Assembly (NCBI GenBank): GCA_030066985.1
Contig: JASJAN010000024.1
Location: 62,001-126,000 of the forward strand
Source: Desulfobacterales bacterium
Lineage (GTDB): Bacteria; Desulfobacterota; Desulfobacteria; Desulfobacterales; JAHEIW01
DNA length: 64,000 nt
Direction of reading: 5' to 3'
Positions 11,963-32,494 of the stretch are shown here, in pieces (the stretch's first letter is position 1; every line of letters begins with the position of its first letter). Position numbers and translations under genes: made by a program. The notes beneath the pieces were generated by a model, which was not told the DNA's origin, ran no database searches, and saw only the letters and a program-made list of their open reading frames with translations.

Positions 11963-12288
11963 AGGCAGATTTGCCATCTGATTATCACCATTAATACTTG
12001 GGCACAGCAGTGACAAATTCAACTTCTCATTAAGTATCATGGATATTCTAGAATTAATTTTAGATAAAAGTGGTTTCAAAGCCTCAGATCAGGTTCCCCG
12101 CTTGAAAGCGGGATTTCACGTCTGATTTCTTAAACTTGATGTGTTCAACAAAGCAAGGCGCCCCGCAAATTGAAAGTGGAGCGTACACGTTAGTACGTGA
12201 GCATTTCAATTTGCGGAGTAACGCAGCCATTGGACCTTTGTCCGCCGGAGGCGGATTGAAACCGCTTTTTAATGAAAGGAGTGTAAAC
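11963..12288. repeat. Intergenic gap with MITE-like element R1, copy 2 (12065-12271)
   Basis: A 326-bp gap almost filled by a second R1 element with imperfect ends TAAAAGTGGTTTCAA / TTGAAACCGCTTTTTA. Its interior matches the copy at 8241 except for an extra block of about 55 bp (around 12094-12155) that includes a small CCCGCTTGAAAGCGGG hairpin. The element ends about 18 bp before the ferredoxin ATG, so it forms the leader of that gene if the array is transcribed through. Confidence 0.75.
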
Positions 12289-12768
12289 ATGTCAAAGGCG
12301 CTGATCGTTAACCTGGATAAATGCACGGGCTGTAGATACTGTGAATTAGCCTGCTCGTTCGCACATCACCGGGAATACAATCCAGCCAAATCCAACATTC
12401 AGGTCAGTATCTTTACCGAAGACGCCTTCTATGTCCCCATGGTTTGTACCCAGTGCAACAGGCCCTTCTGTGGTGAAGTGTGTCCGACCGGTGCGATTTC
12501 TGCGGATGAAGTCAATGGGGCTTATGTGGTTTTGGTGGATCCGGAAAAGTGTGTCGGATGCAAGATGTGCACGATGGCCTGTCCTTTTGGTGCGATTACC
12601 TACCAGAGCTCAGGAATCGTGCAAAAATGCGATTTGTGCGGCGGCAAACCCGAGTGTGTCGAATTTTGCGTCCCCAATGCACTGGAATTTAAAGACGTTG
12701 AATTGACCAATGTTCGCAAATGCCGGGCATATGCCAAAAAAATCTACCATCAGAAGGAGGAAGACTAA
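12289..12768 (+). CDS. Four-cluster ferredoxin-like electron transfer subunit of AOR (AorA-like)
   Basis: A 159-residue protein with four Cys groups: CTGCRYCELAC, CTQCNRPFCGEVC, CVGCKMCTMAC and CDLCGGKPECVEFC, enough for four [4Fe-4S] clusters of the HycB/DmsB type. ATG 12289 has GAAAGGAG at the right distance; a longer upstream frame passes through the R1 repeat and is rejected. It overlaps the AOR gene by one base (TAATG), so the two are translationally coupled. It should relay electrons between AOR and the flavin subunit at 10291 or free ferredoxin. Confidence 0.9.
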   Translation: MSKALIVNLDKCTGCRYCELACSFAHHREYNPAKSNIQVSIFTEDAFYVPMVCTQCNRPFCGEVCPTGAISADEVNGAYVVLVDPEKCVGCKMCTMACPFGAITYQSSGIVQKCDLCGGKPECVEFCVPNALEFKDVELTNVRKCRAYAKKIYHQKEED

Positions 12769-14609
12769 TGGACGCATGGGTGGGTAAGATTTTAAGAGTG
12801 AATTTAACCAAGGGCGCTGTATCGGTTGAGGATTTAGATCAGAAAAGTGCTCATGATTATATCGGCGGACGCGGCTTAGGGATCAAATACCTTTACGATG
12901 AGATCGACCCCAAGGTCGACCCGTTGAGCCCCAGCAACAAGCTCATCATGGTCACCGGCCCGATGACCGCAACGGGCGCCTTGGCGGGCGGTCGCTATAC
13001 CGCCGTAACCAAATCACCTTTAACCGGAGCGATCGCAAACTCCAATTCAGGCGGGTACTTTGGGGCTGAATTGAAGTATGCGGGTTACGACATGATCATA
13101 CTGGAAGGCAAGGCCAAAACGCCTGTTTATCTGTGGATCGAAAATGACAGCATCGAAATTTGCAAGGCCAAACATCTGTGGGGCCTGGAAACCCAGCAGA
13201 CCACCGAAGCGATACTATCCGAAACGGATGCGGAAGCCAAGGTGGCCTGTATCGGGCCGGCGGGTGAGAAGCTGGTCAAATTTGCATGCATTATGAACGA
13301 CACGGGTCGCGCTGCCGGACGATCGGGCGTCGGCGCGGTGATGGGATCAAAGAATCTTAAAGCCATAGCGGTCAGAGGCACCCAAGGCGTGACAGTTGCC
13401 GACCCTGAGGGATTCAGGGCCGCGGTGTTGGATGCCATCAAGGAATTTTACGACCCGTATATGTCCGAAGTTCTGGGGCAGTATGGCACTTCAGATGTGG
13501 TCGAGTTTTCAAATGAGGTCGGCCTGCTGCCCACGCGCAATTATCAGACCGGTGTATTTGAGGGGGCCGCTAAGATCGGCGGTGCAGTGATTGCCAAATA
13601 CAATCTCAGAGGGGCCGCCAAAACCAAGGGCTGTTTTGGCTGCCCGCTGGCCTGTGGCCGGGTAACGCGTATTCCGGAAGGAGAGTTTAAAGGCGCGGGG
13701 GAAGGACCCGAATATGAAACATTGGGCGCTCTTGGCTCTGCTTGCGGAGTCGATAATCCTGAAGCCGTCATCCAGGCCAATTATCTTTGCAACCGCATGG
13801 GCATGGATACCATTTCCACCGGCGTCACGATTGCCTGTGCCATGGAACTTTTTGAAAAGGGCTATCTGACCAAAAAAGATGTCGGTGGTGAGCTGGCTTT
13901 TGGTGACGGCAAAACGGTGGTTGAACTGGTGGAAAAGACCGCCCGGCGTAAGGGATTTGGTGACGCGCTCGCCGAAGGGTCCTACCGGCTGGCGACAAAG
14001 TACGGCCATCCCGAGATGTCCATGACTGCCAAAAAACTTGAATTTCCCAGTTACGACCCTAGAGGCGGACAGGGTTTTGCCCTGGCCTATGCTACCTCAA
14101 ACCGGGGTGGTTGTCATATCCGCAACGAAGTGCATTGTGTCGAATTTTTCGGCATCTCGCTGATGGGTATCGTCAAAACAGGGGATAATTTGGATCGTTT
14201 CACAACTAAAGGCAAGCCGGCGGTGGCCAAAAAGGTCCAGGATTTTTACAGCATGATCGATTCATCCGGAATCTGCAACTTTATCGTTATCGGTTCACCG
14301 GATGCCAAGGTCTTCATCAATCTGATGGAAAAAGGGACTGGCATGAAATTCGGCGGATTGAAGGGTTTTCTCAAAACCGGTGAACGCATCTATAATCTGG
14401 AAAGGCTGTTTAATCTCAAGGCCGGCCTGACAGCCAAAGATGACACCCTGCCCAAACGCATGCTCAAAGAACCGATGCCTGAAGGCCCCGGCAAAGGCCA
14501 GATAGTGCGCTTGGATAAAATGCTGCCGGAATATTACAAACTGCGAGGCTGGTCCGCTAAAGGAGTTCCCTCTGCCAAGAAGCTGTCAGAGCTCGGAATC
14601 GCTACTTAG
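12768..14609 (+). CDS. aor: Aldehyde:ferredoxin oxidoreductase, tungsten (AOR), copy 1
   Basis: A 613-residue AOR-family enzyme, near the usual 600-620. The N-terminal tungstopterin region (RVNLTKG, YIGGRGLGIKYLYDE, SPLTGAIANSNSGG) and the middle GRAAGRSGVGAVMGSKNLKAI are canonical. The [4Fe-4S] ligands start with CFGCPLAC. It oxidises aldehydes to carboxylates with reduction of ferredoxin, in the cytoplasm. AGAAGGAGG precedes the ATG, which overlaps the ferredoxin stop. Partners are the ferredoxin, the MoaD-like protein and the FAD oxidoreductase just upstream. Stop TAG, with an in-frame TGA six codons later. The aldehyde is unknown; the downstream transaminase could supply a semialdehyde. 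Confidence 0.93.
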   Translation: MDAWVGKILRVNLTKGAVSVEDLDQKSAHDYIGGRGLGIKYLYDEIDPKVDPLSPSNKLIMVTGPMTATGALAGGRYTAVTKSPLTGAIANSNSGGYFGAELKYAGYDMIILEGKAKTPVYLWIENDSIEICKAKHLWGLETQQTTEAILSETDAEAKVACIGPAGEKLVKFACIMNDTGRAAGRSGVGAVMGSKNLKAIAVRGTQGVTVADPEGFRAAVLDAIKEFYDPYMSEVLGQYGTSDVVEFSNEVGLLPTRNYQTGVFEGAAKIGGAVIAKYNLRGAAKTKGCFGCPLACGRVTRIPEGEFKGAGEGPEYETLGALGSACGVDNPEAVIQANYLCNRMGMDTISTGVTIACAMELFEKGYLTKKDVGGELAFGDGKTVVELVEKTARRKGFGDALAEGSYRLATKYGHPEMSMTAKKLEFPSYDPRGGQGFALAYATSNRGGCHIRNEVHCVEFFGISLMGIVKTGDNLDRFTTKGKPAVAKKVQDFYSMIDSSGICNFIVIGSPDAKVFINLMEKGTGMKFGGLKGFLKTGERIYNLERLFNLKAGLTAKDDTLPKRMLKEPMPEGPGKGQIVRLDKMLPEYYKLRGWSAKGVPSAKKLSELGIAT

Positions 14610-14816: not shown

Positions 14817-16055
14817 ATGAAAGCAAATCGTCTTTTTATCATTGCGAGTTTAGCTGTTGTGGTTCTATTTAGCGTCCAGGTAATGGCGGCGGAGCCGATT
14901 AAAGTGGGCGCACCCAATCCGCTTACGGGTTATTATGCTTCTGACGGCAATGTGATGTTGAACGCTACAGAGATGGCCGTGGCCGATATTAACGCCCGGG
15001 GTGGGCTTTTGGGGCGACAACTCAAAGTGGTCTCGTTTGATGTTGAAGATATGTTGCCTGAAAAACTGATATCCGCTGCGGAAGTCCTGGTCGTAAAGGA
15101 AAAAGTTGATGTGGTTGTCACCGCCTGCAATGCCATGGGCCCGGATGTACAGGCCTTTGGCAAGTACGATGTCCCTTACATCAACAATAATGCTTCCACC
15201 GTTGCCACGGGTATGGTGAAAGATGATCCCGCTCAGTATTGGAATGTCTTTCAGGCCGGTGATAATGAGCCGGCTTATGTTTCAAAAACCATCGAAACCT
15301 TCATGGGGTTTGGTTACAAACTGCCTAACAAGAAGATGGCCGTGGTTTACAGTGAATACGATTGGGACAAAAAAATCGCGGCTGCTCTGAAAGAGCAGGC
15401 CAAACAATACAATCTAGACCTGGTCATATATGAACAAACGCCTGCAGCCACCAATGCCTGGGGACCCATTCTGACAAAAATTCGGGCCCATGACCCCGCG
15501 CTGGTATTTTTGAGCATTTACGCTCCTGAAAGCATTGCCGCTTTTGCAGATCAATACCTGCAAAACCCGACCAATTCTCTGGTGGACCTGGGTTATGCAG
15601 TCTCCATTCCCTCCTTTATGGAGGTCGCCGGCAAATATGCCGATGGGTTTAGCGGTTACGCGGCCCTGGCGATTCCACCTGAGGCGACGCCCGAAGGGCG
15701 CGCCCTTGAAGCCCGATACAAAAAAATGTTTAAAACCGATAGCATGCCAATCAGCGTTGTGCCCTGCGTGTATGACGGCGTAATGGCTTGGGCGGCGGCG
15801 GTTGAAAAGGTTGGCGATGTAAAAGATTACAAGGCCGTTTCCGCCACCATGAAGACCAACCGCCATAAAGGCATCGGCGGGGTATACGACTTCAACAACC
15901 CGCGCCAGGCGGCCAGAGCGGGGGATGATCTGCTACCGGTCAATCTATTTCAAGCCGAAAAAGGCAAACTCGTGCTGCGCAATCTGGGTAGCAAGCAAAT
16001 ATCGCTCTATCAGCTGCCGCCGTGGTTAAAAGAAACCTGGCCAAAGGCTCAGTAA
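14817..16055 (+). CDS. Branched-chain amino acid-type ABC substrate-binding protein
   Basis: A 412-residue periplasmic binding protein with a Sec signal (residues 1-24, ending VMA-AEP) and the type I fold opening KVGAPNPLTGYYASDG, LNATEMAVADINARGGLLG. AAAAAGGAG precedes the ATG. It heads a complete Liv-type cassette with ATPases and permeases directly behind, followed by an aminotransferase, a Pyl methyltransferase and a corrinoid protein, so its ligand may be the N-methylated substrate of that pathway; this is inference. It resembles the binding protein at 408 only at the family level. Stop TAA overlaps the next ATG by one base. Confidence 0.92.
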   Translation: MKANRLFIIASLAVVVLFSVQVMAAEPIKVGAPNPLTGYYASDGNVMLNATEMAVADINARGGLLGRQLKVVSFDVEDMLPEKLISAAEVLVVKEKVDVVVTACNAMGPDVQAFGKYDVPYINNNASTVATGMVKDDPAQYWNVFQAGDNEPAYVSKTIETFMGFGYKLPNKKMAVVYSEYDWDKKIAAALKEQAKQYNLDLVIYEQTPAATNAWGPILTKIRAHDPALVFLSIYAPESIAAFADQYLQNPTNSLVDLGYAVSIPSFMEVAGKYADGFSGYAALAIPPEATPEGRALEARYKKMFKTDSMPISVVPCVYDGVMAWAAAVEKVGDVKDYKAVSATMKTNRHKGIGGVYDFNNPRQAARAGDDLLPVNLFQAEKGKLVLRNLGSKQISLYQLPPWLKETWPKAQ

Positions 16056-16819
16056 TGGCGAGCACTGCAGATTTCAACTCGCAAAACGAAGGCGTGGGGG
16101 CGCAAGCCCCCATCCTTCAAGTCCGAAACCTCACCAAGGCATTCGGGGCCATGCTGGCCGTCAATGATTTAAGTTTTGAGGTCCCTGCAGGCGAGGTGTT
16201 TGGTATTGCCGGGCCCAATGGTGCCGGAAAAACAACGGTGTTCAATTTGATTACCGGCTTTCTGCAGGGGACCGGCGAGGTGCGCTTCGAAGATAAAAAT
16301 GTGACCAACCTTAAACCCTATCAGATTTGTCACCGCGGCATCGCCCGGACACTTCAAATTCCGCAGGTCTTTTCCAGCCTTGATGTGTTCAACAATGTCC
16401 GATTTGGTGCGCATTTTGGTAACAAACACCTAAAGGATGGTAATGAAGCGGAGATTATCCATCGGGTTATAGATTTCGTTGGTTTGCAGGATGATAAAAC
16501 AACCATCGCTGAGAATATGGACCTGTTTCATAAAAAGCTGATTATGATTGCGGCAGCGCTTGCGACCCAGCCGCGCCTATTGTTGCTCGATGAGCCCATT
16601 GGTGGTCTGAGCCCGGCGGAGATTGATCCACTCATCGAACTCATTCGCAAGATCAATCAGGAATTGAATATCACCGTCATTATCATCGAGCATCTGATGA
16701 AAGTGCTCAAAGAGCTTTCTGATCGTCTGATGATCCTGCACTACGGGGAAGAAATTCGCACTGCCCCCCCGACGGAAGTCATGGAAGATGAAAAAGTAAA
16801 AGAAGTTTATCTGGGTTAG
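16055..16819 (+). CDS. livG: LivG-like ABC transporter ATPase
   Basis: A 254-residue ATPase with Walker A GPNGAGKTT, Q-loop region ARTLQIPQVF and Walker B LLLLDEP followed by IGGLSPAE. The ABC signature expected before Walker B is degenerate (FHKKLIMIAAALA instead of an SGG-type motif). It starts at the TAATG overlap with the binding protein, so is translationally coupled. It couples ATP hydrolysis to the LivH/LivM permeases encoded downstream. Stop TAG; a LivF-type partner follows after 10 bp. Confidence 0.9.
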   Translation: MASTADFNSQNEGVGAQAPILQVRNLTKAFGAMLAVNDLSFEVPAGEVFGIAGPNGAGKTTVFNLITGFLQGTGEVRFEDKNVTNLKPYQICHRGIARTLQIPQVFSSLDVFNNVRFGAHFGNKHLKDGNEAEIIHRVIDFVGLQDDKTTIAENMDLFHKKLIMIAAALATQPRLLLLDEPIGGLSPAEIDPLIELIRKINQELNITVIIIEHLMKVLKELSDRLMILHYGEEIRTAPPTEVMEDEKVKEVYLG

Positions 16820-16829
16820 GAGAACCGTT

Positions 16830-17534
16830 TTGCTCGAATTGAAGAACATCAATACCTATTATGGTGAATTCCATGCCATCCGAGACGTTTCTTTTACAGT
16901 CGCTCCGGGTGATTTTTTCCTGGTGATCGGACCCAACGGCCACGGAAAGAGCACTTTACTGAAAACGATCTGCGGCTTACTCCGCACAGCCTCAGGGCAA
17001 ATCGTTTTCAATTCAACCGAAATTAACGGATTCGCGACGGATAAAATCGTGGAGATGGGCCTGGTGTATGTGGCCGAGGAGCGACATCTTTTCCCCCAGA
17101 TGACTGTTCTGGATAATTTAAAGCTGGGCGCCTATAACACCAATGCCCGGGCTAAAGAACGCGAAACCCTCGAATACGTCTTTCATTTATTTCCACATTT
17201 AAACAAATTTAAAGATAGATATGCAGCCACACTCAGCGGCGGAGAAGCACGCATGCTAACCCTCGGCAGAGGTATTATGTCATGTGCCAAGCTGTTGGCC
17301 ATTGATGAACCGTCCTTCGGATTGGCTCCCATCCTCAGAAACGAAGTATTCGACAAGATCAATGAGATCAACTCCAGCGGCATGACCGTCCTTTTGGTGG
17401 AGCAGAATGTCAATCAGGTGGTGAACTTCGCAGACCGAATCTGTCTGATCGAAGACGGATGTATCGTCTTTAATGGCCCAAGAGAAGAGGCCCTGCTCAA
17501 CGAACACGTTAAAGATGTATTTTTAGGTGGATAA
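16830..17534 (+). CDS. livF: LivF-like ABC transporter ATPase
   Basis: A 234-residue ATPase with Walker A GPNGHGKST, a full signature TLSGGEARMLTLGRG, Walker B LLAIDEP and the FGLAP stretch typical of LivF. Translation likely starts at TTG 16830, preceded by TTAGGAGAACC; no in-frame ATG fits the family N-terminus (LELKNINTYYGEFHA). It forms a heterodimer with LivG; its intact signature contrasts with the degenerate one in its partner. Stop TAA, 5 bp before livH. Confidence 0.9.
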   Translation: MLELKNINTYYGEFHAIRDVSFTVAPGDFFLVIGPNGHGKSTLLKTICGLLRTASGQIVFNSTEINGFATDKIVEMGLVYVAEERHLFPQMTVLDNLKLGAYNTNARAKERETLEYVFHLFPHLNKFKDRYAATLSGGEARMLTLGRGIMSCAKLLAIDEPSFGLAPILRNEVFDKINEINSSGMTVLLVEQNVNQVVNFADRICLIEDGCIVFNGPREEALLNEHVKDVFLGG

Positions 17535-17539
17535 TACCG

Positions 17540-18421
17540 ATGAATATTTGGGTTCAACAGATCATTCAAGTGATTATTAGTGGGATTGTGACGGCTTCAG
17601 CATACGCGATTATGGGTATCGGATTATCGGTTATTTACGGCATATCGCGGGTATTCAATTTTGCCTACGGATCCTTTTTTACCTGGGGCGCTTATTTTGC
17701 CTGGATTTTATTTGCCACATTTTCATGGATGAATTATCCGCTGGTTTTTTTGATTGTAGTGCCGGCAATGTTTTTTTTGGGTATGGGTACCGAAAAGATT
17801 GTGGTGCGGTCCCTGCGCTGGCGCAAAAACTGGCAGGTGACCACGATGATGGTGACGCTGGGATTGGCCTTTTTAATGGATAATCTGGCGCTGGTTATTT
17901 TTGGCGGATTTGCCAAGCCGCTGCCGCCGATGTTTCGTGGTTCCATAAATCCGTTTGGTTTCACCCTGAGCGTGCAAGATCTGGCTATGATGATTATCGC
18001 CGTAACGGTGATGATTGCCTTTGGTTTATTTCTGTCCAGAACCCGGATCGGAAGATGCATGCAAGCCATCTCGCAAGATATGACCGGCGCCGAAATTGTC
18101 GGCATTCCAATCAAAAAAGTATTTAGCTATACCTTTGGGCTGTCCACCGCACTGGTGGGAACCGGTGGTATTCTGCTGGCACCCCGCTATTTCATCACGC
18201 CTCATGGCGGCTGGGCCCCATTTTTCCGTGTGTTTGTCATCGTGGCATTTGGCGGCCTGGGCAGCATTCGGGGAACACTCTATGCGGCCTTTATCCTGGC
18301 GATTTTTGAGTCCTTTGTTTCCTGGGGGCTGGGTGCCACCTGGGTCATGCCTTTTTGGTTTTTGGTCTTCTTAGGGGTACTGGCATTTCGTCCTTCGGGA
18401 TTAATGGGCACTTGGGGTTAG
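17540..18421 (+). CDS. livH: LivH-like ABC transporter permease
   Basis: A 293-residue integral membrane protein of the LivH family: SGIVTASAYAIMGIGLSVIYGISRVFNFAYG near the N-terminus, about eight hydrophobic segments, and the cytoplasmic loop RTRIGRCMQAISQDMTGAEIVGI that contacts the ATPases. Typical length. It lies 5 bp after livF and 8 bp before livM in one operon. Stop TAG, followed in frame by TGA three codons later. Confidence 0.92.
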   Translation: MNIWVQQIIQVIISGIVTASAYAIMGIGLSVIYGISRVFNFAYGSFFTWGAYFAWILFATFSWMNYPLVFLIVVPAMFFLGMGTEKIVVRSLRWRKNWQVTTMMVTLGLAFLMDNLALVIFGGFAKPLPPMFRGSINPFGFTLSVQDLAMMIIAVTVMIAFGLFLSRTRIGRCMQAISQDMTGAEIVGIPIKKVFSYTFGLSTALVGTGGILLAPRYFITPHGGWAPFFRVFVIVAFGGLGSIRGTLYAAFILAIFESFVSWGLGATWVMPFWFLVFLGVLAFRPSGLMGTWG

Positions 18422-18429
18422 ATAGAAAA

Positions 18430-19440
18430 ATGAAAATGGAAATCAGACAAGAGCTAATCATTTATTTGGCCATATATCTCGTTTTGCTGTTTTTGCCCGT
18501 GTTTCTTTACAAGGATGCATATATCATCGGGATCCTGATTACCTGCATGGTCTGGGGCGCGGTAGCATCCGTATGGAATTTCACGATGGGGTATGCCGGT
18601 ATTTTTACCTTTGGTCAGTTTGGTTTTTTTGTAGTGGCCGCCTATACATCCGGCATGGTGACCAAATACCTGGGGATCTCCCCCTGGCTGGGCATTTTGA
18701 TTGGCGGATTGATGGCCGCACTGGTGGGTGTTCTCATCGGCCTGCCGTGCATGAAATTAAAAGGCGCCTACATTGCTTTAATCACCTTTGCACTTCATCT
18801 GGTTGTGGCACCGATGATTAAGGTGGCCGACCCACTGGGCACCGGCGGTAGCACGGGTCTGATGTCCATTCCAAAATTAAGTTTAGGCGCATATACGTTT
18901 TCACGTACCGATCTGATTCCGTGGTATTATACCGCTTTGGTAATATCCTTTTTGGTCCTTTTAGTTGTCTATAAAACCATTTTTTCCTCAATTGGTTTAG
19001 GATTCATCGGCCTGCGCGACTCAGAGGACTTTGCCAAAACCCTGGGCATAAATGAATATAAGTATAAATTGATGGTATTTGGCCTTTCGGCATTTTTGAC
19101 CGGAATCATGGGTGGATTTTATGCTCATTATGCCGGCATTATCTCTCCCCGATTGTTGGGTCTTGATATCTTCCTTTTGGTCATGCTCATGATGATCATC
19201 GGAGGCATGGGAATCTTTCCGGGCGCCTTTTTAGGCGGTTTTATTATTCTTTTTTTAAATGAGTTTTTGCGTCCGTTAGAAGCCTATCGTTTCCTGATTT
19301 TTGGCGCGATTGTCGTCGTTGCCATCAAACTCATGCCGGAAGGCATACTGGGGAATCTCAACTTTTTTAAGAATCGAATGGGTAAGCGTTTGCTAGGCAG
19401 AGCAGCGGAGGTGAAATCGACCACCGGCCAAAATGTTTAA
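18430..19440 (+). CDS. livM: LivM-like ABC transporter permease
   Basis: A 336-residue permease with the LivM hallmarks GYAGIFTFGQFGFFVVAAY, GLPCMKLKGAYIALITFA and a GMGIFPGAFLGG segment near the C-terminus. ATG 18430 is taken as start; the in-frame extension upstream overlaps livH and lacks family similarity. It completes the importer set. A strong hairpin follows the stop TAA. Confidence 0.92.
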   Translation: MKMEIRQELIIYLAIYLVLLFLPVFLYKDAYIIGILITCMVWGAVASVWNFTMGYAGIFTFGQFGFFVVAAYTSGMVTKYLGISPWLGILIGGLMAALVGVLIGLPCMKLKGAYIALITFALHLVVAPMIKVADPLGTGGSTGLMSIPKLSLGAYTFSRTDLIPWYYTALVISFLVLLVVYKTIFSSIGLGFIGLRDSEDFAKTLGINEYKYKLMVFGLSAFLTGIMGGFYAHYAGIISPRLLGLDIFLLVMLMMIIGGMGIFPGAFLGGFIILFLNEFLRPLEAYRFLIFGAIVVVAIKLMPEGILGNLNFFKNRMGKRLLGRAAEVKSTTGQNV

Positions 19441-19441
19441 A

Positions 19442-19461
19442 TGACGCTGCTCGCAGCGTCA
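19442..19461 (+). terminator. Intercistronic hairpin after livM
   Basis: TGACGCTG-CTCG-CAGCGTCA, a perfect 8-bp stem with a tetraloop, one base after the livM stop. There is no downstream T run, so it more likely stabilises the transporter mRNA or attenuates than fully terminates. Confidence 0.5.
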
Positions 19462-19561
19462 GCGGATGGCTAAAAACCTATTATCGCTGGCGCGCATCAT
19501 AGCGCAAAGCAAGGTTCAAGCATTATTTCTTTTTTAACGTTTACAGAAGAGGAGCAAATCT

Positions 19562-20836
19562 ATGAGTCTTCAAGCAAAAAACGAAGTGTTGCACGAACAA
19601 AGGAGCCGCTATGTCTCCGACGGGGTGGCAAGTGTGACGCCCTTATATGTCGAATCCGCCAAAGGGGCCATCATAAAGGATGTTGAAGGCAGAGAATATA
19701 TTGATTTTGCCGGTGGCATCGCGGTTATGAACATCGGGCACAGCCATCCCAAGGTGGTGGCGGCGATAAAGGATCAGGCCGAAAAATTTACCCACACCTG
19801 CTTTATGGTCAACCCGTACGAATCGGTGGTAATGCTGGCTGAAAAACTCTGCCAAGTGACCCCCGGCGATTTCCCCAAAAAAGCGGTTTTTCTCAACTCC
19901 GGTGCGGAAGCGGTTGAAAATGCGGTTAAGATTGCCCGCTATTACACCAAACGGCCTGCCATTATCGTCTTTGAAAACGCTTATCACGGCCGCACGTTGC
20001 TGACCATGACGATGACCAGCAAGGTCAAGCCCTATAAATTCGGATTCGGCCCCTTTGCGCCGGAGGTATACCGGATGCCTTTCGGCGACGAGGTGGGGCC
20101 GGAGAAGCTTCATGATTTTTTTGTCCAACACGTCAACCCAGAAGCGGTGGCAGCGGTTGTGATCGAACCGGTACAGGGTGAGGGCGGCTTTATTGCGCCA
20201 CCGCCCGGCTATTTTCAGGAGCTGGCCAAAATTTGCCGAGAAAACGGCATTCTTTTCGTGGCCGATGAAATTCAGAGCGGCATGGGTCGGACCGGCAAGA
20301 TGTTTGCCATCGAACACTGGGATGTAGAGCCGGATTTGATTACGGTCGCCAAAAGCCTGGCAGCCGGTATGCCGCTGGCAGCCGTCATCGGCAAGCAGGA
20401 GATCATGGATTCCATCCATCCCTGGGGTCTGGGCGGAACGTATGGGGGCAATCCCGTGGCATGTCGGGCTGCACTGGCCGTGCTGGAGGTTTTCGAGGAA
20501 GAAGGCCTGGTAGAAAAAGCGGCGGTTTTAGGGGAAAAGATGAGAGCGCGGTTTGAAAAGTGGCAGCAGCAATTCGCGATGATCGGAGAAATCAGAGGTC
20601 TGGGCGCCATGCTGGGGCTGGAGCTGCTCAAGGGAGACAATAAAGAACCCGCTACCGATGAAGCCAAACAACTGGTAAGTTTCTGCTACGAAAGAGGTCT
20701 GGTGATCCTGGCCTGTGGCAGCTTCGGCAACATCATACGAATTTTGGCGCCGTTTGTGATTACGGATGAACAACTGGAACAAGGCTTTGCCATCATGGAG
20801 GAAGGGCTGGCAGCCCTCTCGAGTGCCAATGAATAA
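19562..20836 (+). CDS. Class III omega-aminotransferase (4-aminobutyrate aminotransferase-like)
   Basis: A 424-residue PLP enzyme with SGAEAVENAVKIAR, the YHGRT motif, VADEIQSGMGRTGKMF (intact PLP Asp) and catalytic Lys in TVAKSLAAGMPLAAVIG. Closest in pattern to GabT-like enzymes acting on terminal amino groups, giving a semialdehyde with 2-oxoglutarate or pyruvate as acceptor. Its place between a Liv-type importer and a methyltransferase, with AOR genes on both sides, suggests it deaminates the demethylated substrate to an aldehyde for AOR. AGAAGAGGAG precedes the ATG. It overlaps the next small gene by 8 bp. Stop TAA. Confidence 0.88.
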   Translation: MSLQAKNEVLHEQRSRYVSDGVASVTPLYVESAKGAIIKDVEGREYIDFAGGIAVMNIGHSHPKVVAAIKDQAEKFTHTCFMVNPYESVVMLAEKLCQVTPGDFPKKAVFLNSGAEAVENAVKIARYYTKRPAIIVFENAYHGRTLLTMTMTSKVKPYKFGFGPFAPEVYRMPFGDEVGPEKLHDFFVQHVNPEAVAAVVIEPVQGEGGFIAPPPGYFQELAKICRENGILFVADEIQSGMGRTGKMFAIEHWDVEPDLITVAKSLAAGMPLAAVIGKQEIMDSIHPWGLGGTYGGNPVACRAALAVLEVFEEEGLVEKAAVLGEKMRARFEKWQQQFAMIGEIRGLGAMLGLELLKGDNKEPATDEAKQLVSFCYERGLVILACGSFGNIIRILAPFVITDEQLEQGFAIMEEGLAALSSANE

Positions 20837-21158
20837 GAACAATAATGCCATATTGGCAAACTTCGCAGAGATCAAACAGAATCTGGATCCGTCTTCTGAT
20901 TACATCATTTTCGAAAAGACCGGAACCATGGAAAACAGATCAGATTTCAGCGAGGCTGATGCGTTTATCATGCGGTATCAGAAATCCGTCATCACCCAGG
21001 AGGTGCACCACGACCCTACCGGAAAGCACCACTTACTTATTGTTAAATTAAAGGTGGATGAGTTGGATGAGATTTCACAGGAAATTTTAAATCTCACGCT
21101 CCCGGAGAATATCACGGTTTATGTTTACGGACGTCGCCCGAGCATTGAAACCGCTTGA
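20829..21158 (+). CDS. Small conserved-context protein of unknown function
   Basis: A 109-residue soluble, acidic protein with no signal peptide or membrane segment and a single-domain look (SSDYIIFEKTGTM, KHHLLIVKLKVDELDEI, NITVYVYGRR). I do not recognise a family. ATG 20829 overlaps the aminotransferase stop by 8 bp and mtbB starts 26 bp later, so it is embedded in the operon and translationally coupled. Alternating hydrophobic residues suggest a beta-rich fold. It could be an accessory or small subunit for the methyltransferase or transaminase. Stop TGA. Confidence 0.7.
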   Translation: MNKNNNAILANFAEIKQNLDPSSDYIIFEKTGTMENRSDFSEADAFIMRYQKSVITQEVHHDPTGKHHLLIVKLKVDELDEISQEILNLTLPENITVYVYGRRPSIETA

Positions 21159-21184
21159 GCGAAAAAAGAATAAGGGAGGATATT

Positions 21185-22570
21185 ATGGGAAAGATTCTTA
21201 CCCGTTTCGGTGACGGAACGCCCACTGAAATGAGCGAAAGTGAGCTGCGGGCGGATTTGGAAGCCGGCACCGAGGACGCGGCGGATCGTGGCAAAATACC
21301 GCCGCTAACCGAAGATGAGCTAAACCATCTATTCGATATTTTTAGCTCGCCCTATAAATTTATCAGTGTGGAGCCCGGGCAGGAAATCGTTCTGACCTAC
21401 GATGGCGCCCATGTGAAAATCAGGCGCCATGGGCTCAATCTTGAGCGCATCCAGGGCCTGCAGGTATATGAAAAGGTCATGGGCGCCGACACACTGGAGC
21501 TCTGCCACGTGGATTATAGCTTCAAACCCATCAAACCCATCGTTACCTTTGAGCAACCGGTCATGGAACAGGCCCTTTTAACCACGCATGCGCCCATGTT
21601 TTATGGCGCCATGCCCAATTTGGGCCTTTACTCCCAGCCTGACGGCCCGTTTCCGAATCCGGCCGAGCTCATGCCGGCGGGCAAAATAGAAGAGGCGCAG
21701 GCATCCCACGAACTGGCGGTCAAAGAGGCTGTCAGAGATATCGTCTTTGTGGGCAGCTGCATGATTGAATGCGGGGCCGACGGGATAAATATCGACTCCA
21801 CAGGTGCAGCCGGCGATGCTGATTTTCTGGCGGCCCTGTTGGCCACCCAACAGTTGAAGGAGAAATACCCGCATACGTGTGTCGAGATCGGTATGGCCGG
21901 TGAATTCATCCTCGGCATGCACGCCGGTCTTGAATTTGAAGGCACCCGACTGGCCGGACTCTACCCTCACGATCAAGTCAAACTGGTCGAAAAAGCCGGG
22001 GGCACGATCTATGGCCCGGTTGTCAATACCAATACGACCGAGTCCACCCCCTGGAATGTGGCGCGGGTGGTGACCTTCACCAAAGCGGTCGGCGAAGTCG
22101 CCAAAATTCCCATTCACCCGAATATGGGTATGGGTGTCGGGGCCGTCCCAACCTGCGATCATCCCCCCATCGATACGGTTTCCCGGGCGTCCAAAGCCAT
22201 GGTGGAAATCTGTCGATTGGACGGGTTGTAGGTTGGCGTCGGCGATCCGTTCGCCATGGCGCTTGCTCACGCACACGCCTCGGGCATGGGCGGAATGCGG
22301 ACCTCCGGAGATCTGGTCGCCCGCATGCAAATGTCCCGCGGCATGAAAATTAAGGAAGCCAAAGAGTATGTCGCCAATAAATTAAGTTTATCGGTAGCCG
22401 AAATAGCTGACCCGGTCATTATGACTGAAGTCCGCCAGGATCTGAACCTAGGTGTTATTTCACCGCAGGCCGGCGATGCTCTGGGCATTGAAGCCAAATG
22501 CCGCATTGCCGAAGTTCTGGATATCGATATCAATTGCGTCAACCGCTTTAAAGCCAAAGCTGGGATTTAA
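21185..22570 (+). CDS. mtbB: Dimethylamine methyltransferase MtbB with in-frame amber (pyrrolysine) codon
   Basis: A 461-residue protein when the in-frame TAG at 22229-22231 is read as pyrrolysine (residue 349). The flanks match archaeal MtbB closely: the N-terminus LTRFGDGTPTEM, GADTLELCHVDYSFKPIKP, FYGAMPNLGLYSQPDGPF, DSTGAAGDAD, and around the amber VEICRLDG-O-VGVGDPFAMALAHAHASGM; archaeal MtbB has Pyl at about residue 356. MtbB transfers a methyl group from dimethylamine to the corrinoid protein MtbC, Pyl binding the amine. AGGGAGGATATT precedes ATG 21185. The mtbC gene follows, and the pyl operon lies 3 kb downstream. True stop TAA. A related secondary amine is possible as substrate. Confidence 0.95.
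22229..22231 (+). other. In-frame UAG decoded as pyrrolysine in mtbB
   Basis: TAG at codon 349 of mtbB, between family-conserved segments EICRLDG and VGVGDPFAM. Frame and homology continue without shift for 113 more codons to TAA. A matching amber-decoding tRNA-Pyl is encoded at 25462-25535. Confidence 0.95.
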
Positions 22571-22602
22571 GATTAAATTGTAGCCGTAGAGGAGATAGGT
22601 TC

Positions 22603-23256
22603 ATGATAGATGAAAAGATCATTGAGGAAGCCAAACAGTTGATTGTTCAGCAAGACAAAGAGGAAGCGGCTAAATTCGCCGAAAAAGTCATTGCCGAAGG
22701 CACCGATCCGCTTGAGTTATTAAAGGAAGGATTTATTCCCGGAATCAATCATGTGGGCGATTTATTCGGACGCGGCCAATTGTTTTTACCGGAATTGATT
22801 AAAGCCGCCGATGCCATGAAAACGGTCACCGACCTGGTAAACGAAGCCATCGCCGACGAATCGCAAAAGCAGGCCAGCCCGGCGACAGTGCTTATTGCCA
22901 CAGTCAAGGGTGATGTCCACGATATCGGCAAGGCAATCGTGGTTTCATTGATGAAGGCCAACGGATTTACCGTACATGATTTGGGTCGCGATGTTGAGAC
23001 CGACAAAATTATCGAAGAAGCCGAAAAATTAAATGCGGACATCATTGGCACAAGCGCCCTGCTAACGACCACCATGCCGAAGCAAAAAGAGATTGAAGAA
23101 GCACTCAAAAGCTCAGGTCTTAGGGATCGCTTTAAAACGATCGTCGGTGGCGCTCCGGTAACACCCCGCTGGGCGGCCCGCATCGGTGCAGATGCCTATG
23201 CTGAAGATGCCCAGGACGGTGTTTTAAAAGTCAAAGAGCTCCTGATGCAAGATTAA
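22603..23256 (+). CDS. mtbC: Methylamine corrinoid protein (MtbC family)
   Basis: A 217-residue corrinoid protein. The N-terminal helical cap (about 1-88) contains GRGQLFLPELIKAADAM; the cobalamin-binding domain has D104-x-H106-x-x-G109 in KGDVHDIGK (His is the lower Co ligand), the SALLTTTM segment and a VGGAP loop near 180. It accepts the methyl group from MtbB and would pass it to a methylcobamide methyltransferase, which is not in this window; no RamA-type reductive activase was found either. AGAGGAGATAGG precedes the ATG. It is the only corrinoid protein seen here and may also serve the three non-Pyl MttB-family enzymes. Stop TAA. Confidence 0.93.
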   Translation: MIDEKIIEEAKQLIVQQDKEEAAKFAEKVIAEGTDPLELLKEGFIPGINHVGDLFGRGQLFLPELIKAADAMKTVTDLVNEAIADESQKQASPATVLIATVKGDVHDIGKAIVVSLMKANGFTVHDLGRDVETDKIIEEAEKLNADIIGTSALLTTTMPKQKEIEEALKSSGLRDRFKTIVGGAPVTPRWAARIGADAYAEDAQDGVLKVKELLMQD

Positions 23257-23349
23257 TTTTGCATGCCGTTAATTTCGGTCTCGGTATCTAATGGATTCCA
23301 TTCCGCGGCGTGTCATTGATGAACATGCCGCCAATGACAGGGGGAAGAC

Positions 23350-25113
23350 ATGCACGGGTTTTACAACCGCATATTAAAAATCGATTTAAGCAACAAGCGT
23401 TTTTCCATCGAGGCCCTCGACGAAGACGCCAATAATCTGCTGGGCGGCAAAGGTTTATGCGCCCATCTGTTATCGAGCCTCAATCCACCGGGTGTTGATC
23501 CGTTGTCCCCGGAAAACTCTTTAATTTTTGCCACTGGGCCCAGCGGGGGAAGCACCATCTGGGGATCGTGCCGCTATGGGGTTTTCACCAAGTCACCTCA
23601 GACCGGATTCTATTCGGAATCGTATTCCGGCGGCAAGGTGCCTGAGGCCATCGACAGCACCGGGTTTGACGCCATTGTCATCCAAGGAAGGTGCGCCGAG
23701 CGCACCATCCTGGTGATTCATCCCGAAGGAGTAGATTTTCATGAAGCGGGTGATATTTGGGGAATGGAAACTTACGCTGCTGAAGATGCCGTTATGCAGC
23801 GCTTCGGCAAATCCGATAATCGGTATCGACGCAAAGGCGCGGTGGTAATTGGACCGGCTGGTGAAAATCAGGTCTGCTTTGCGGTCATTGAAAACGATTA
23901 CTGGCGATCCGCTGGAAGAACCGGTGTCGGCACAATCATGGGCGCCAAACAAATCAAAGGCATTTTATTTCAGGGCGATCAGAAACGTTCGTTTTATGAT
24001 GACAAAGCGGTGCGCGAATTTTCCAAGAATCTCGCGGCAGAGGCCAAAGACAGCCCGGCGACCAATGCTTATAAGTCACTGGGAACCCCCATGATGGTCA
24101 AGCTGATCAACACCGCCGGTGCGTTTCCAACGCGCTACTGGGCAGAAGGCGTCTATACGGATTGGGAAAAAATCAGCGCCGATGCCCTGCATGAAAGATG
24201 CGATGTCAAGCCCCATGCCTGCCTAAAGTGTTTTATGGCCTGCGGGCGCATGAGCACCGTCCAAAAGGGTCGTCATGCCGGCCTCAAGATCGAAGGACCG
24301 GAGTATGAAACCATTTATGCCTTCGGGGGACTGTGCCTAATCGACAGCATCGAAGAAATTGCCTATCTGAATGATATCTGTGATCGTCTGGGCATGGATA
24401 CGATTACAGCCGGCAACCTTTGCGCCTTTACGATTGAAGCTGCCAAACAGGGCCGCATCGATTATCCGATCGACTATGGTGATGTCGACGCCATCGCCGA
24501 CTTGCTTCATAAAATCGCCGCCAGAGAAGACATCGGTGAAGTGCTGGCTGGTGGCATAAAAGCGGCGGCCCGGCAATGGCAAATGGAAGACCAGGCGGTT
24601 CACGTTAAGGGACTTGAGCCGGCGGGATATGATCCGCGTTCTCTCAAAGGCATGGGCTTGAGCTATGCCACCTCGGATCGGGGGGCGTGTCACTTGAGAG
24701 CCACTTTTTATAAACCGGAAATCAGCGGCATGATCCCACCGGAGCAAATTGAAGGTAAAGCCGAGCTATTTTTGGATTTTGAAGATCGGTTGACCCTTTT
24801 CGACACGTTGATTCTTTGCCGGTTTTACCGTGATTTCTACGACTGGGATAAGCTGGCAGAAATGATCCGGGCCTTAACCGGCATCGATGAAGGTAAAGCA
24901 GGACTGCAGCAGAGGGCCCGGCAGATTGCTGACATCATCCGGCGGTTCAATTTGCGGGAAGGGTTAAAGCCCGAGGATGATCGGCTGCCGAAAATCTTTC
25001 ACCGCAAACTTGAAGATTCCGGGCTGGTCATCACCGAAGATGAGCTTGAAACCATGCTGCAGGATTATTATCGACTGCATGGATGGGACGAAATGGGTCA
25101 GCCTCAAGGCTGA
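23350..25113 (+). CDS. Aldehyde:ferredoxin oxidoreductase family protein (AOR), copy 2
   Basis: A 587-residue AOR-family protein, slightly short. The N-terminal pattern is a variant (LLGGKGLCAHLLSS; FTKSPQTGFYSESYSGG instead of the usual SPLTG...SNSGG). The mid motif RSAGRTGVGTIMGAKQIKGI and [4Fe-4S] ligands CLKCFMACG plus a late Cys (LILCRF) are present. There is no dedicated ferredoxin gene next to it. It lies 93 bp after mtbC, upstream of tRNA-Pyl, so it is part of the methylamine/Pyl island; oxidation of the aldehyde made by the upstream transaminase is a natural inference. GGGGGAAGAC precedes the ATG. Stop TGA. Confidence 0.88.
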   Translation: MHGFYNRILKIDLSNKRFSIEALDEDANNLLGGKGLCAHLLSSLNPPGVDPLSPENSLIFATGPSGGSTIWGSCRYGVFTKSPQTGFYSESYSGGKVPEAIDSTGFDAIVIQGRCAERTILVIHPEGVDFHEAGDIWGMETYAAEDAVMQRFGKSDNRYRRKGAVVIGPAGENQVCFAVIENDYWRSAGRTGVGTIMGAKQIKGILFQGDQKRSFYDDKAVREFSKNLAAEAKDSPATNAYKSLGTPMMVKLINTAGAFPTRYWAEGVYTDWEKISADALHERCDVKPHACLKCFMACGRMSTVQKGRHAGLKIEGPEYETIYAFGGLCLIDSIEEIAYLNDICDRLGMDTITAGNLCAFTIEAAKQGRIDYPIDYGDVDAIADLLHKIAAREDIGEVLAGGIKAAARQWQMEDQAVHVKGLEPAGYDPRSLKGMGLSYATSDRGACHLRATFYKPEISGMIPPEQIEGKAELFLDFEDRLTLFDTLILCRFYRDFYDWDKLAEMIRALTGIDEGKAGLQQRARQIADIIRRFNLREGLKPEDDRLPKIFHRKLEDSGLVITEDELETMLQDYYRLHGWDEMGQPQG

Positions 25114-25461
25114 TCATTTGATGTATTTTGATATTTGGTGCTTGAATTTGCATGAAAATTAATGAGAAGCAATCATAAAAATATACAATAGCGATGCAAC
25201 GAACCGGCGGAGTATAACAATAGCAGATCATTCTTAATGGATGTGTATCATTCTATCTCATTAATTTTCACCCTGGAAACAATGCGGCGAGCCTCAGGCT
25301 TCCATCGGTCCGCCTGAGGCGGATTATTCAGAGCGAAGCATAGTTCACTATAGCTTCGCCCTGAAATGCCTTGCATATGAAAGCCTGCGACTCGTGCAAA
25401 ATTCATGCACATTTATTGAGAAATATCGTTTTGCAAAAAATGTAAATCATCATTAAAATGC
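25114..25461. other. Intergenic region before tRNA-Pyl
   Basis: A 348-bp gap holding repeat R3 copy 1 (25255-25403). No clear promoter for the pyl operon was identified; a TTGCAA-N17-TAAAAT match ends only two bases before the tRNA and is rejected as a tRNA promoter. Confidence 0.6.
25255..25403. repeat. Structured dispersed repeat R3, copy 1
   Basis: About 149 bp shared with 37086-37224: ATCTCATTAATTTTC at one end, the palindrome TCCGCCTGAGGCGGA (25309-25323), a hairpin with stem 25333-25339 / 25353-25359, then GCCTTGCATATGAAAGCCT. Compared with copy 2, the stem differs at three pairs and all three changes are compensated. Confidence 0.75.
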
Positions 25462-25535
25462 GGGGGGTGGATCGCAATGTGATCGTGTGGACTCTAAATC
25501 CACATAGGCGGGTGCAACTCCCGTACTCCCCGCCA
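25462..25535 (+). tRNA. pylT: tRNA-Pyl (anticodon CUA)
   Basis: 74 bases including encoded CCA. A seven-pair acceptor stem (GGGGGGT / ACTCCCC), a short D arm GATC/GATC, a six-pair anticodon stem TGTGGA/TCCACA with loop CTCTAAA placing anticodon CTA at 25494-25496, and a T arm GCGGG/CCCGT lacking the usual TTC. Discriminator G before CCA. Compact D loop and six-pair anticodon stem are tRNA-Pyl hallmarks, and the sequence is close to the Desulfitobacterium hafniense tRNA-Pyl. It sits 35 bp upstream of pylSc. Confidence 0.97.
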
Positions 25536-25570
25536 TTAAACTTTAGATTCTGCCAGAGTTGAGGATTCAT

Positions 25571-26413
25571 ATGGTTACGTGGACCGAAACACAGCTAAGA
25601 CGATTGCAGGAGCTGGAAGCATCCGAGTCTGATTTGAACCAGGAATTTGAGAATACGGCTGCTCGGGAAAGTGCTTTCCAGAAAATCGAAAATAAGCAGG
25701 CGCAGCAATTACGGCAGCGCCTAAAAGCGTTTCGTGAAAATGAAATGAGGCCCGGACTATGCAGGCTTGAAACCAAGCTGGCAGAGGAGCTGATCAAACA
25801 GGGCTTCGTCCAAGTCACCACACCGATATTAATGTCGCGGGGCCTATTGCAGAAAATGTCGATTGACGCCGACCACCCGCTGAATTCCCAGATATACTGG
25901 CTCGATAAAAATAAGTGTTTGCGACCCATGCTGGCACCCCATCTGTATTACGTTTTGGTGGACCTGCTGCGCCTGTGGGATAAACCGGTCAAGGTTTTTG
26001 AGATCGGTCCCTGCTTTCGCAAGGAATCTCATGGTGCCCAGCATTCCAGTGAGTTCACCATGCTCAATTTGGTTGAAATGGGGCTTCCCACCGATCAGCG
26101 AAAAAAGAGAATTTCAGAATTAGGCGCTTTGGTTGCTGAGACCGCCGGCATCAGTAGTTATCGCTTTGAGAAGATAAAATCCGAAATCTATGGTGATACC
26201 ATCGACATGGTGGCTGGAAAGGATCCGGTTGAGATCGGTTCGGCCGCTATGGGCCCGCATCCGCTGGATCGGCCCTGGAAAATAACGGATACATGGGTTG
26301 GCATCGGTTTTGGGCTCGAACGGCTGCTCATGGTGGCTGCTAGCAGTAGCAATCTGGCAAAGATGGGGCGCAGCCTCACCTATTTGGATGGTATCCGCTT
26401 AAATATTCAATGA
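25571..26413 (+). CDS. pylSc: Pyrrolysyl-tRNA synthetase, C-terminal catalytic subunit PylSc
   Basis: A 280-residue class II synthetase catalytic domain, lacking the N-terminal tRNA-binding domain found in archaeal PylS. Motif 2 is FRKESHG (149-155); the pocket residues matching archaeal Asn346 and Tyr384 are N166 (TMLNL) and Y207 (IYGDT); motif 3 is GIGFGLERLL (244-253); LRPMLAPHLYY is the ATP/amino-acid pocket strand. ATG 25571 follows TTGAGGATTC; the upstream TTG is not needed. It charges tRNA-Pyl with pyrrolysine together with PylSn. Its TGA overlaps the pylB ATG by four bases. Confidence 0.97.
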   Translation: MVTWTETQLRRLQELEASESDLNQEFENTAARESAFQKIENKQAQQLRQRLKAFRENEMRPGLCRLETKLAEELIKQGFVQVTTPILMSRGLLQKMSIDADHPLNSQIYWLDKNKCLRPMLAPHLYYVLVDLLRLWDKPVKVFEIGPCFRKESHGAQHSSEFTMLNLVEMGLPTDQRKKRISELGALVAETAGISSYRFEKIKSEIYGDTIDMVAGKDPVEIGSAAMGPHPLDRPWKITDTWVGIGFGLERLLMVAASSSNLAKMGRSLTYLDGIRLNIQ

Positions 26414-27537
26414 GAATTAAAGTGAACGATGCAGACAAAGGGCAAGTCTTTGAAGCCCTGCTTTCCAAAATAAAAGCAGAAGAAAACCTGTCAACAGCTG
26501 AGATGTCATTTCTTCTGAACCTGCAGGATGAAGGTCAGATCGAGGCGCTTTTTGAAAAGGCCCGCAACGTGCGTCGCAATTATTTCGGTAACAAAATTTT
26601 CATGTACGGATTTATCTACGCCAGTACCTATTGCCGTAATGATTGCCGCTTTTGTCTTTTTCGCCGCTCGAATGTGCAAACCACACGATACCGCAAAACA
26701 AAACAGGAAATTATGACTGCCGCCACCCGCTTGGCGGATTCCGGTGTTCATCTGATCGATCTGACCATGGGTGAAGACCCTGATATGTTCAACGGCCCTG
26801 GGGCTGGTTTTGATCGGCTTGCGGATCTGGTGGCATCTTTACAAAAACAAACAGGGCTGCCGATAATGGTCTCTCCGGGGGTGGTGCCCGCGGGGGTTAT
26901 GCAGCGGCTGGCCGCAGCAGGCGCGGTTTGGTATGCGTGCTATCAGGAAACCCACAATCCATCGTTGTTCGAAAAACTGCGACCCAGTCAGGATTATCAT
27001 CGTCGCATGCAAAGTAAAGTTGACGCCCACCATTGCGGTATGCTCGTAGAGGAAGGTTTGCTGTGCGGGGTGGGCGAAACCCCGGATCATATCGTTCAAT
27101 CGCTAAAGGTAATGAATAAAGTGGGAGCGGATCAAATCAGAGTAATGAACTTTGTTCCGCAACTAGGGACACCCATGGCACAACAAGCGCCACCGGACCC
27201 CCTCAGAGAGACCCTCATGATTGCGATCATGCGACTTGTCTTTCCTGATCGCCTTATCCCGGCATCATTGGACGTGGCAGGCATCGCCGGGTTGAGAAGC
27301 CGTCTAAATGCGGGCGCCAATGTGGTCACATCCATCGTACCCCCTGGTGAAGGCCTTTTCGGTGTCGCTCAGCATTCGCTGAACATAGAAGAAGGCGGTC
27401 GCACAACAGCGGCCGTGCAAAACGTTTTGCAGCCCCTTGGGCTGCAACCGGCTAGCCGCAAAGTTTACCAGAGCTGGCTCAAAGGCCGCCAACAATTTGT
27501 CGCCAACCCTCAAATCCGCACGGAGGCTGCATGTTAG
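26410..27537 (+). CDS. pylB: Methylornithine synthase PylB (radical SAM)
   Basis: A 375-residue radical SAM enzyme that isomerises L-lysine to (3R)-3-methyl-D-ornithine, first step of pyrrolysine synthesis. The cluster motif is C75-x3-C79-x2-C82 in STYCRNDCRFC, after the family segment RNYFGNKIFMYGFIYAS. The start overlaps the pylSc stop (ATGA). Its own stop is TAG, which this organism can decode; the frame would run only about 40 codons further and overlaps pylC. Order pylSc-B-C-D-Sn is the usual bacterial one. Confidence 0.97.
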   Translation: MRIKVNDADKGQVFEALLSKIKAEENLSTAEMSFLLNLQDEGQIEALFEKARNVRRNYFGNKIFMYGFIYASTYCRNDCRFCLFRRSNVQTTRYRKTKQEIMTAATRLADSGVHLIDLTMGEDPDMFNGPGAGFDRLADLVASLQKQTGLPIMVSPGVVPAGVMQRLAAAGAVWYACYQETHNPSLFEKLRPSQDYHRRMQSKVDAHHCGMLVEEGLLCGVGETPDHIVQSLKVMNKVGADQIRVMNFVPQLGTPMAQQAPPDPLRETLMIAIMRLVFPDRLIPASLDVAGIAGLRSRLNAGANVVTSIVPPGEGLFGVAQHSLNIEEGGRTTAAVQNVLQPLGLQPASRKVYQSWLKGRQQFVANPQIRTEAAC

Positions 27538-29557: not shown

Positions 29558-29558
29558 A

Positions 29559-32452: not shown

Positions 32453-32494
32453 AAAATAAAAAAGTGTTTTGAAAATCGTTGGCGGTACCCAACG

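Follow-up and report, generated by a model that had tools for sequence, protein, structure and literature searches.

Gene content of the operon

The window considered here is a stretch of 64,000 nucleotides from a Desulfobacterales bacterium (assembly GCA_030066985.1, contig JASJAN010000024.1, positions 62,001 to 126,000). Between positions 14817 and 25113 it carries an operon in which a pyrrolysine (Pyl)-type methyltransferase of the MtbB family and a corrinoid protein lie between a 4-aminobutyrate (GABA) transaminase and an aldehyde:ferredoxin oxidoreductase (AOR), preceded by the genes of a Liv-type importer. Open reading frames and family calls bear out the gene content given in a preliminary description of this DNA, namely five Liv importer genes, a class III aminotransferase, a 109-residue protein (u109), MtbB, a corrinoid protein and an AOR. 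They likewise agree with its statement that these genes run in one direction (+) with short gaps, all of which measure 121 bases or less, with several overlaps. The arrangement suggests a corrinoid methyltransferase system in which Pyl-MtbB is joined to GABA breakdown. The operon comprises the following genes:

14817..16055, +, LivJ-type periplasmic binding protein (Pfam Peripla_BP_6)
16022..16819, +, LivG-type ATPase (Pfam ABC_tran; start codon uncertain)
16830..17534, +, LivF-type ATPase (profile matches)
17540..18421, +, LivH-type permease (Pfam BPD_transp_2)
18355..19440, +, LivM-type permease (Pfam BPD_transp_2)
19562..20836, +, GABA transaminase, class III aminotransferase (TIGR00700)
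20829..21158, +, u109, 109-residue protein (start at 20829 most likely)
21185..22570, +, MtbB, Pyl-type methyltransferase with TAG at residue 349 (TIGR02368, PF09505, TAG)
22603..23256, +, MtbC-like cognate corrinoid protein (TIGR02370)
23350..25113, +, AOR2, aldehyde:ferredoxin oxidoreductase (Pfam AFOR_N/AFOR_C)

The mtbB gene most likely starts at the ATG at 21185, and its product scores above both family cut-offs (503.3 against 369.1 for TIGR02368, 650 against 25 for PF09505). There is one in-frame TAG, at residue 349, which coincides with the conserved Pyl site and is accompanied by a pyl cassette in the genome; an Rfam PYLIS_2 match (22229-22328) also lies inside the gene. The adjacent corrinoid protein passes TIGR02370 (223.5 against 215.3) and falls below the cut-off of NF041607, the dimethylamine-specific MtbC model (203.3 against 350). 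The AlphaFold model of MtbB is poor (mean pLDDT 60.7) and nothing was drawn from it, and a profile search of the PDB returned 0 matches to a solved MtbB. Residues specific to the MtbB clade described below include R80, H135 and H364. The full pyl cassette is situated downstream of AOR2, beyond the run of genes covered by the preliminary description:

25462..25535, +, tRNA-Pyl, anticodon CTA (ARAGORN)
25559..26413, +, PylSc (TIGR02367)
26410..27537, +, PylB (TIGR03910)
27531..28703, +, PylC (TIGR03909)
28700..29557, +, PylD (TIGR03911)
29439..29903, +, PylSn (TIGR03912)

The class III aminotransferase exceeds the TIGR00700 cut-off for GABA transaminases (572.2 bits against 506.65). In an alignment with E. 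coli GabT it keeps I53, R144, E207, Q238, K264 and R393, corresponding to I50, R141, E211, Q242, K268 and R398 of GabT, all active-site positions, and the place of GabT V241 is taken by I237. The Liv/HAAT importer set is complete, with a binding protein, two ATPases and two BPD_transp_2 permeases encoded contiguously. The top PDB sequence match of the binding protein is 3h5l, with 3ip5 and 3ipc weaker, and the ATPase at 16022..16819 has UrtD and LivG as its top NCBIfam matches, both under cut-off. At the downstream end of the operon, AOR2 has both AFOR domains and matches the solved AORs 9mqx, 1aor and 8c0z over its full length.

The small protein u109, encoded between the transaminase and MtbB, is predicted to adopt a ferredoxin-like beta-alpha-beta-beta-alpha-beta fold (AlphaFold2, mean pLDDT 78.6), and Foldseek returns generic ferredoxin-like matches alone (top E 1.5e-3). 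It stands beside the transaminase in the mtbB-free genomes of loci L208 and L214, as well as in L233, L236 and L237, whose mtbB state was not determined. Next to MtbB/MtbC it is likewise encoded in loci that showed no transaminase, namely L046 (20 kb), L057 (12 kb) and the short loci L069 and L235. As it accompanies the GABA module and also MtbB/MtbC, u109 ties the two halves of the operon together. Of the 21 loci L238-L258, 20 have a member of a wider u109-like group (24-31%) close to an ABC ATPase, which is a separate setting.

The window's assembly (5.07 Mb, 97.8% complete) was also surveyed for methyltransferases. It contains one MtbB and nine MttB homologues, none of which has an internal stop, and no MtmB was found in it. 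The usual ladder of methylamine enzymes is absent from this assembly, and with no MtmB, no Pyl-MttB and a single MtbB, the latter is therefore the sole Pyl enzyme of the three classical families here, other TAG genes not having been searched. The assembly further has three matches to PF14574 (RamA-type) and four to pterin-binding enzymes. In the sister genome G002, a segment of 11.4 kb (positions 5556-16977 of L259) encodes a Pyl-MttB together with MtbC. A contig gap at this site was considered as the cause of the missing Pyl-MttB and rejected, since at the matching site the window's assembly has, within a contig, about 200 bases in place of the 11.4 kb. Among 26 genomes examined, MtmB matches occur in 15; among the matches listed, TAG is present in L166 alone and TAA in one fragment, the rest being stop-free.

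Recurrence of mtbB beside the transaminase in other genomes

An alignment of 14 MtbB sequences was used to scan 84,980 species genomes for relatives; of the 168 obtained, the best 80 were taken, as 79 loci. After removal of MtbB rows with less than 350 residues of match and of identical or contained copies, 103 distinct rows from the fetched loci remained. A row was counted as transaminase-linked when a GABA transaminase with 54% identity or more was encoded no further than 8 kb from mtbB. On this definition 17 of these 103 rows are linked, spread over 14 loci and 12 genomes; the expected number, at 1-2 copies per 5 Mb, is 0.2-0.4. The preliminary description had proposed a search for conserved synteny, and mtbB, the GABA transaminase, the corrinoid protein and an AOR do recur together in other genomes, which rules out the first of its refuting outcomes, a synteny confined to this genome.

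The simplest of these arrangements, with the order transaminase, MtbB, MtbC, AOR2, is found in L052 (Desulfocicer vacuolatum) and L053 (Desulforhopalus singaporensis). Another locus of D. singaporensis (L100) runs in one direction (+) from a BCCT carrier through a non-Pyl MttB, MtbC, Pyl-MttB and Pyl-MtbB to the transaminase, which starts 8 bases after the MtbB stop. Another locus of D. vacuolatum (L108), likewise all on the + strand, has a non-Pyl MttB, Pyl-MttB, Pyl-MtbB, BCCT, transaminase and MtbC. Non-Pyl and Pyl MttB also accompany MtbB and the transaminase in L062 and L063, with MtbB on a divergent arm in the latter, and L056 combines a Pyl MttB, MtbB and the transaminase with a non-Pyl MttB (partial match). 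In L211, both kinds of MttB stand with the transaminase, just behind which the contig ends. Liv genes lie beside MtbB, without the transaminase, in L107 (Spirochaetes). In three Desulfobacula loci (L068, L073 and L114), an MtbB from the window MtbB's own clade and AOR2 are paired with a class III aminotransferase that is less closely related (32%).

Linkage is unevenly spread over the MtbB tree. The window MtbB belongs to a clade of 21 rows (SH-aLRT 97, quick search), 11 of which are transaminase-linked and eight AOR2-linked, as compared with 6/82 and 1/82 among the other rows (for transaminase linkage, Fisher p 1e-5 with kinship ignored). Within this clade, the flanks of L122 and L070 are shorter than 2 kb, and the mtbB of L129 begins at base 295. 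The transaminase tree comprises 37 rows, sequences of less than 330 residues or below 40% having been dropped, and its rows L056 and L003 are one gene. On its starred branches at least five changes of mtbB linkage are forced, so that linkage has been gained or lost repeatedly; gains are not separable from losses in this count, and contig ends may hide linkages.

The transaminase also has a distribution of its own. A match at E 1e-100 is present in 21 of 58 genomes, comprising all nine genomes that carry mtbB, that of the window among them, and 12 of 49 mtbB-free ones, defined by the lack of a PF09505 match in the draft assembly; collapsed to families, the counts are 5/5 and 11/48 (p 0.0015). 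The presence of mtbB was rejected as an explanation of the transaminase, given the 12 mtbB-free relatives that carry it.

Proposed pathway, alternatives and relation to known systems

Corrinoid-dependent methyltransferases can be sorted by amine class: quaternary amines are substrates of non-Pyl MttB, tertiary ones (trimethylamine) of Pyl-MttB, secondary ones (dimethylamine) of MtbB and primary ones (methylamine) of Pyl-MtmB. Since MtbB, which in methanogens removes a single methyl group from dimethylamine, takes a secondary amine, its reaction here would be the conversion of R-NH-CH3 to R-NH2, for example of 4-methylaminobutyrate to GABA. The Liv importer would take up a GABA-like omega-amino acid, and the methyl group removed by MtbB would pass to the corrinoid protein and on to tetrahydrofolate. 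The transaminase would then convert GABA to succinic semialdehyde, and AOR2 would turn this semialdehyde into the acid, reducing ferredoxin in the process. In the relatives, BCCT, non-Pyl MttB, Pyl-MttB, MtbB and the transaminase could together remove every methyl group from a betaine, for instance gamma-butyrobetaine or beta-alanine betaine, and so release the unmethylated amino acid. While gene content, synteny, TAG codons and family membership are read from the genomes, the substrate, the amine-class logic and the direction and order of the reactions are what we infer from them.

On balance, we consider it somewhat probable that the operon serves the uptake and oxidation of a GABA-like omega-amino acid and that MtbB and MtbC open its N-methylated form to use. 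A broader proposal, which we regard as having an even chance of being correct, is that the MtbB of this clade and the linked Pyl-MttB demethylate N-methylated omega-amino acids. Anaerobes would then have a complete pathway in which an omega-amino-acid betaine loses its methyl groups one by one, from the quaternary amine via the tertiary and secondary to the primary amine, before conversion to the semialdehyde and the acid, and the whole Pyl coding system of the window organism would be kept mainly for MtbB. The sequence of demethylation, transamination and oxidation put forward in the preliminary description is retained, and is better stated by amine class: MtmB would not be needed, because the product of MtbB is already a primary amine for the transaminase, and none was found. 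The kind of substrate envisaged there, an omega-amino acid that is also N-methylated, agrees best with the loci that have BCCT, non-Pyl MttB and Pyl-MttB; the parts in the window need not share one methylated substrate.

Several observations weigh against the proposed use of a methylated omega-amino acid. Surroundings were covered in 11 of the 12 mtbB-free relatives with a transaminase match (in the twelfth, G007, it lies at a contig end), and in nine of these 11 the transaminase occurs with Liv genes and/or AOR2, standing beside AOR2 in L205, L208, L213, L218 and L219. Importer, transaminase and AOR therefore constitute a GABA module of their own. These parts need no methylated substrate, and the earlier idea that all parts act on a single one was too strong. 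The pattern suggests that demethylation was joined to a pre-existing GABA module. Liv genes, transaminase and MtbB occur in one run only in the window and its near twin G002 among the loci compared, and 86 of the 103 mtbB rows lack a close transaminase in the surrounding 8 kb, many contigs being short. In L207, L209, L210, L217 and others, such transaminases lie away from mtbB though mtbB is present elsewhere in the genome. The window MtbB still passes the dimethylamine methyltransferase model TIGR02368. None of the nine MttB homologues checked in the window's assembly is a Pyl-MttB, and so the tertiary-amine step is missing there. Finally, a succinate-semialdehyde dehydrogenase is encoded elsewhere in the genome, so that AOR2 is not required for GABA. 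An AOR as an obligatory step was rejected on this ground; AOR2 is not alone as a candidate oxidiser of succinic semialdehyde.

The same logic might apply to another omega-amino acid, an option that is compatible with the proposal above and that we hold only tentatively. Candidates are beta-alanine, derived from its betaine or from N-methyl-beta-alanine, as well as 5-aminovalerate and carnitine-derived 3-hydroxy-GABA; GABA transaminases often accept these amines. At 57576-61801 (-), Pfam domains suggest a dihydropyrimidinase and both components of a dihydropyrimidine dehydrogenase, enzymes that would lead to beta-alanine and might thereby supply the transaminase from another side. The same contig also encodes a methylmalonate-semialdehyde dehydrogenase, 4.7 kb outside the window. 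Against such substrates, the best family matches of the enzyme are GABA transaminases, with TIGR00700 passed and the GabT-aligned residues kept.

It is unlikely that the operon merely unites two independent, co-regulated modules for nitrogen or carbon scavenging, one for GABA (Liv, transaminase, AOR) and one for dimethylamine (MtbB, MtbC, pyl), with monomethylamine excreted or otherwise used. The occurrence of the GABA module without mtbB and the TIGR02368 score are consistent with this account, as are the similar PAS/sigma-54 activators encoded at transaminase loci both with mtbB (L052) and without it (L208, L214). Some relatives could use monomethylamine, given the MtmB homologues in 15 of 26 genomes, one with TAG. 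The window's assembly, however, yielded no MtmB, transaminase linkage is concentrated in one MtbB clade, and the arrangements vary across 12 genomes, some including BCCT and MttB and one placing the transaminase 8 bases behind MtbB.

A glycine betaine series is decidedly improbable. Glycine betaine use typically involves BCCT carriers and non-Pyl MttB, and both are present in the loci. In such a series MttB and MtbB would take glycine betaine through dimethylglycine and sarcosine to glycine, and the transaminase would only move nitrogen. Among the PDB matches of the MttB homologue encoded in the window, 9yce (glycine betaine methyltransferase) and 2qne do appear, but behind the trimethylamine methyltransferase 7xcl; glycine would leave a GABA transaminase and an AOR without an obvious function, and the same transaminase accompanies AOR2 in the mtbB-free loci named above. 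A chance neighbourhood in one genome can be dismissed, as the arrangement is kept in G002 and, in parts, in 12 genomes, and no point in its favour was found.

The proposed use of an N-methylated GABA-like amino acid can be compared with several known systems. The methanogen MtbB/MtbC dimethylamine system shares the MtbB family, the in-frame TAG, the adjacent corrinoid protein and a nearby pyl cassette. In contrast to that system, these elements lie here inside an operon for GABA uptake and transamination, MtmB was not found, the corrinoid protein is under the MtbC-specific cut-off, and sister loci couple MtbB to BCCT, MttB and the transaminase. GABA catabolism proceeds through GabT and a semialdehyde dehydrogenase (GabD); the transaminase is common to both settings, whereas here an AOR would replace or join GabD and the importer is of the Liv type. 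In the aerobic lower nicotine pathway, 4-methylaminobutyrate oxidase, an O2-dependent flavoprotein, converts N-methyl-GABA to GABA, which is then transaminated and oxidised. The same logic from N-methyl-GABA to GABA is proposed here, with corrinoid and pyrrolysine chemistry and an AOR.

MtyB of Eubacterium limosum is reported to convert gamma-butyrobetaine to 4-dimethylaminobutyrate, on which the organism did not grow and whose fate in the gut is called unknown (PMC8604678). As described there, MtyB resembles the present systems in being an MttB-superfamily enzyme that works with a corrinoid protein in the first demethylation of an omega-amino-acid betaine; the clusters described here add Pyl-MttB, Pyl-MtbB and the transaminase, and could carry 4-dimethylaminobutyrate to GABA and beyond. 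Pyl-MttB and Pyl-MtbB in marine Deltaproteobacteria are discussed in the main text of another paper as trimethylamine use, with a dimethylamine methyltransferase named (PMC8318568). So far as that text describes them, those gene sets share with the present ones the broad bacterial group, Pyl-MttB, Pyl-MtbB and the pyl cassette, and a word search of it gave 0 occurrences of aminotransferase, transaminase or aldehyde. Pyl enzymes are so far known for three small methylamines, and a review states that PylRS serves only mttB, mtbB and mtmB (PMC11363022). Among open-licence PMC papers (titles and abstract starts), no link of mtbB to a transaminase or AOR was found, nor in open-licence PMC literature any report of Pyl enzymes demethylating GABA-like amino acids before use. 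Should MtbB and Pyl-MttB paralogues indeed have methylated amino acids as substrates, the range served by the 22nd amino acid would be wider than thought, the tri- and dimethylamine methyltransferase annotations in such loci would be misread, and 4-dimethylaminobutyrate would gain a candidate anaerobic route. Two cultured species, D. singaporensis and D. vacuolatum, carry loci with all steps, so that direct growth and enzyme tests are possible.

Flanking genes and MttB homologues of the window

Outside the importer-to-AOR2 genes and the pyl cassette, the following features were recorded:

3894..5630, +, PAS/sigma-54 activator (domains checked)
8391..9935, -, non-Pyl MttB homologue, divergent from the AOR1 genes (Tyr at the pyrrolysine column)
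10291..11583, +, pyridine-nucleotide flavoprotein (top NCBIfam match PadH, under cut-off)
12136..12768, +, 4Fe-4S ferredoxin-like protein beside AOR1 (profile match)
12720..14609, +, AOR1, a second AOR directly upstream of the operon (profile matches; kept in G002)
25096..25115, +, terminator-like hairpin with T-rich tail at the AOR2 stop (pattern match only)

Terminator-like patterns of this kind are about as common in shuffled sequence (17 found against a mean of 15.0). The PAS/sigma-54 activator, whose domains were checked in the window, L052, L208 and L214, has similar counterparts in other transaminase loci, forming a cluster of 12 of the 28 loci compared. A second class III aminotransferase lies at 5944-7128 (+); it was recognised by Pfam, has no NCBIfam match at E 1e-80, and is conserved at this place in G002. 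The flavoprotein, the 4Fe-4S protein and AOR1 (10291-14609) are arranged like the three-part AOR of Aromatoleum, and AOR1 with an Fe-S protein adjoins mtbB in L060, L066 and L075. Another AOR is found beside a DAO-family flavoprotein and an enolase-superfamily gene at 32363-36961 (-), next to which a 256-residue protein without a Pfam match is encoded at 31508-32278.

The MttB homologue at 8391..9935 was considered as a Pyl enzyme and rejected, because it has Tyr at the pyrrolysine column and its TAG at residue 515 is the stop codon. The read-through open reading frame nevertheless passes TIGR02369 (538.7 against 525), and an Rfam PYLIS_3 match over the gathering score lies within the gene (8782-8882, -). 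Since the gene has no pyrrolysine codon, both signals mark homology and not Pyl use. In the MttB tree this protein forms a group (98) with another MttB from the same genome and the non-Pyl MttB of L062, L211, L063 and L046, in a position next to the Pyl-MttB clade, while the non-Pyl MttB of L100 and L108 form a separate, distant pair. At 408-3252 (-), a further non-Pyl MttB stands beside a Liv-type binding protein, again pairing a Liv importer with a methyltransferase.

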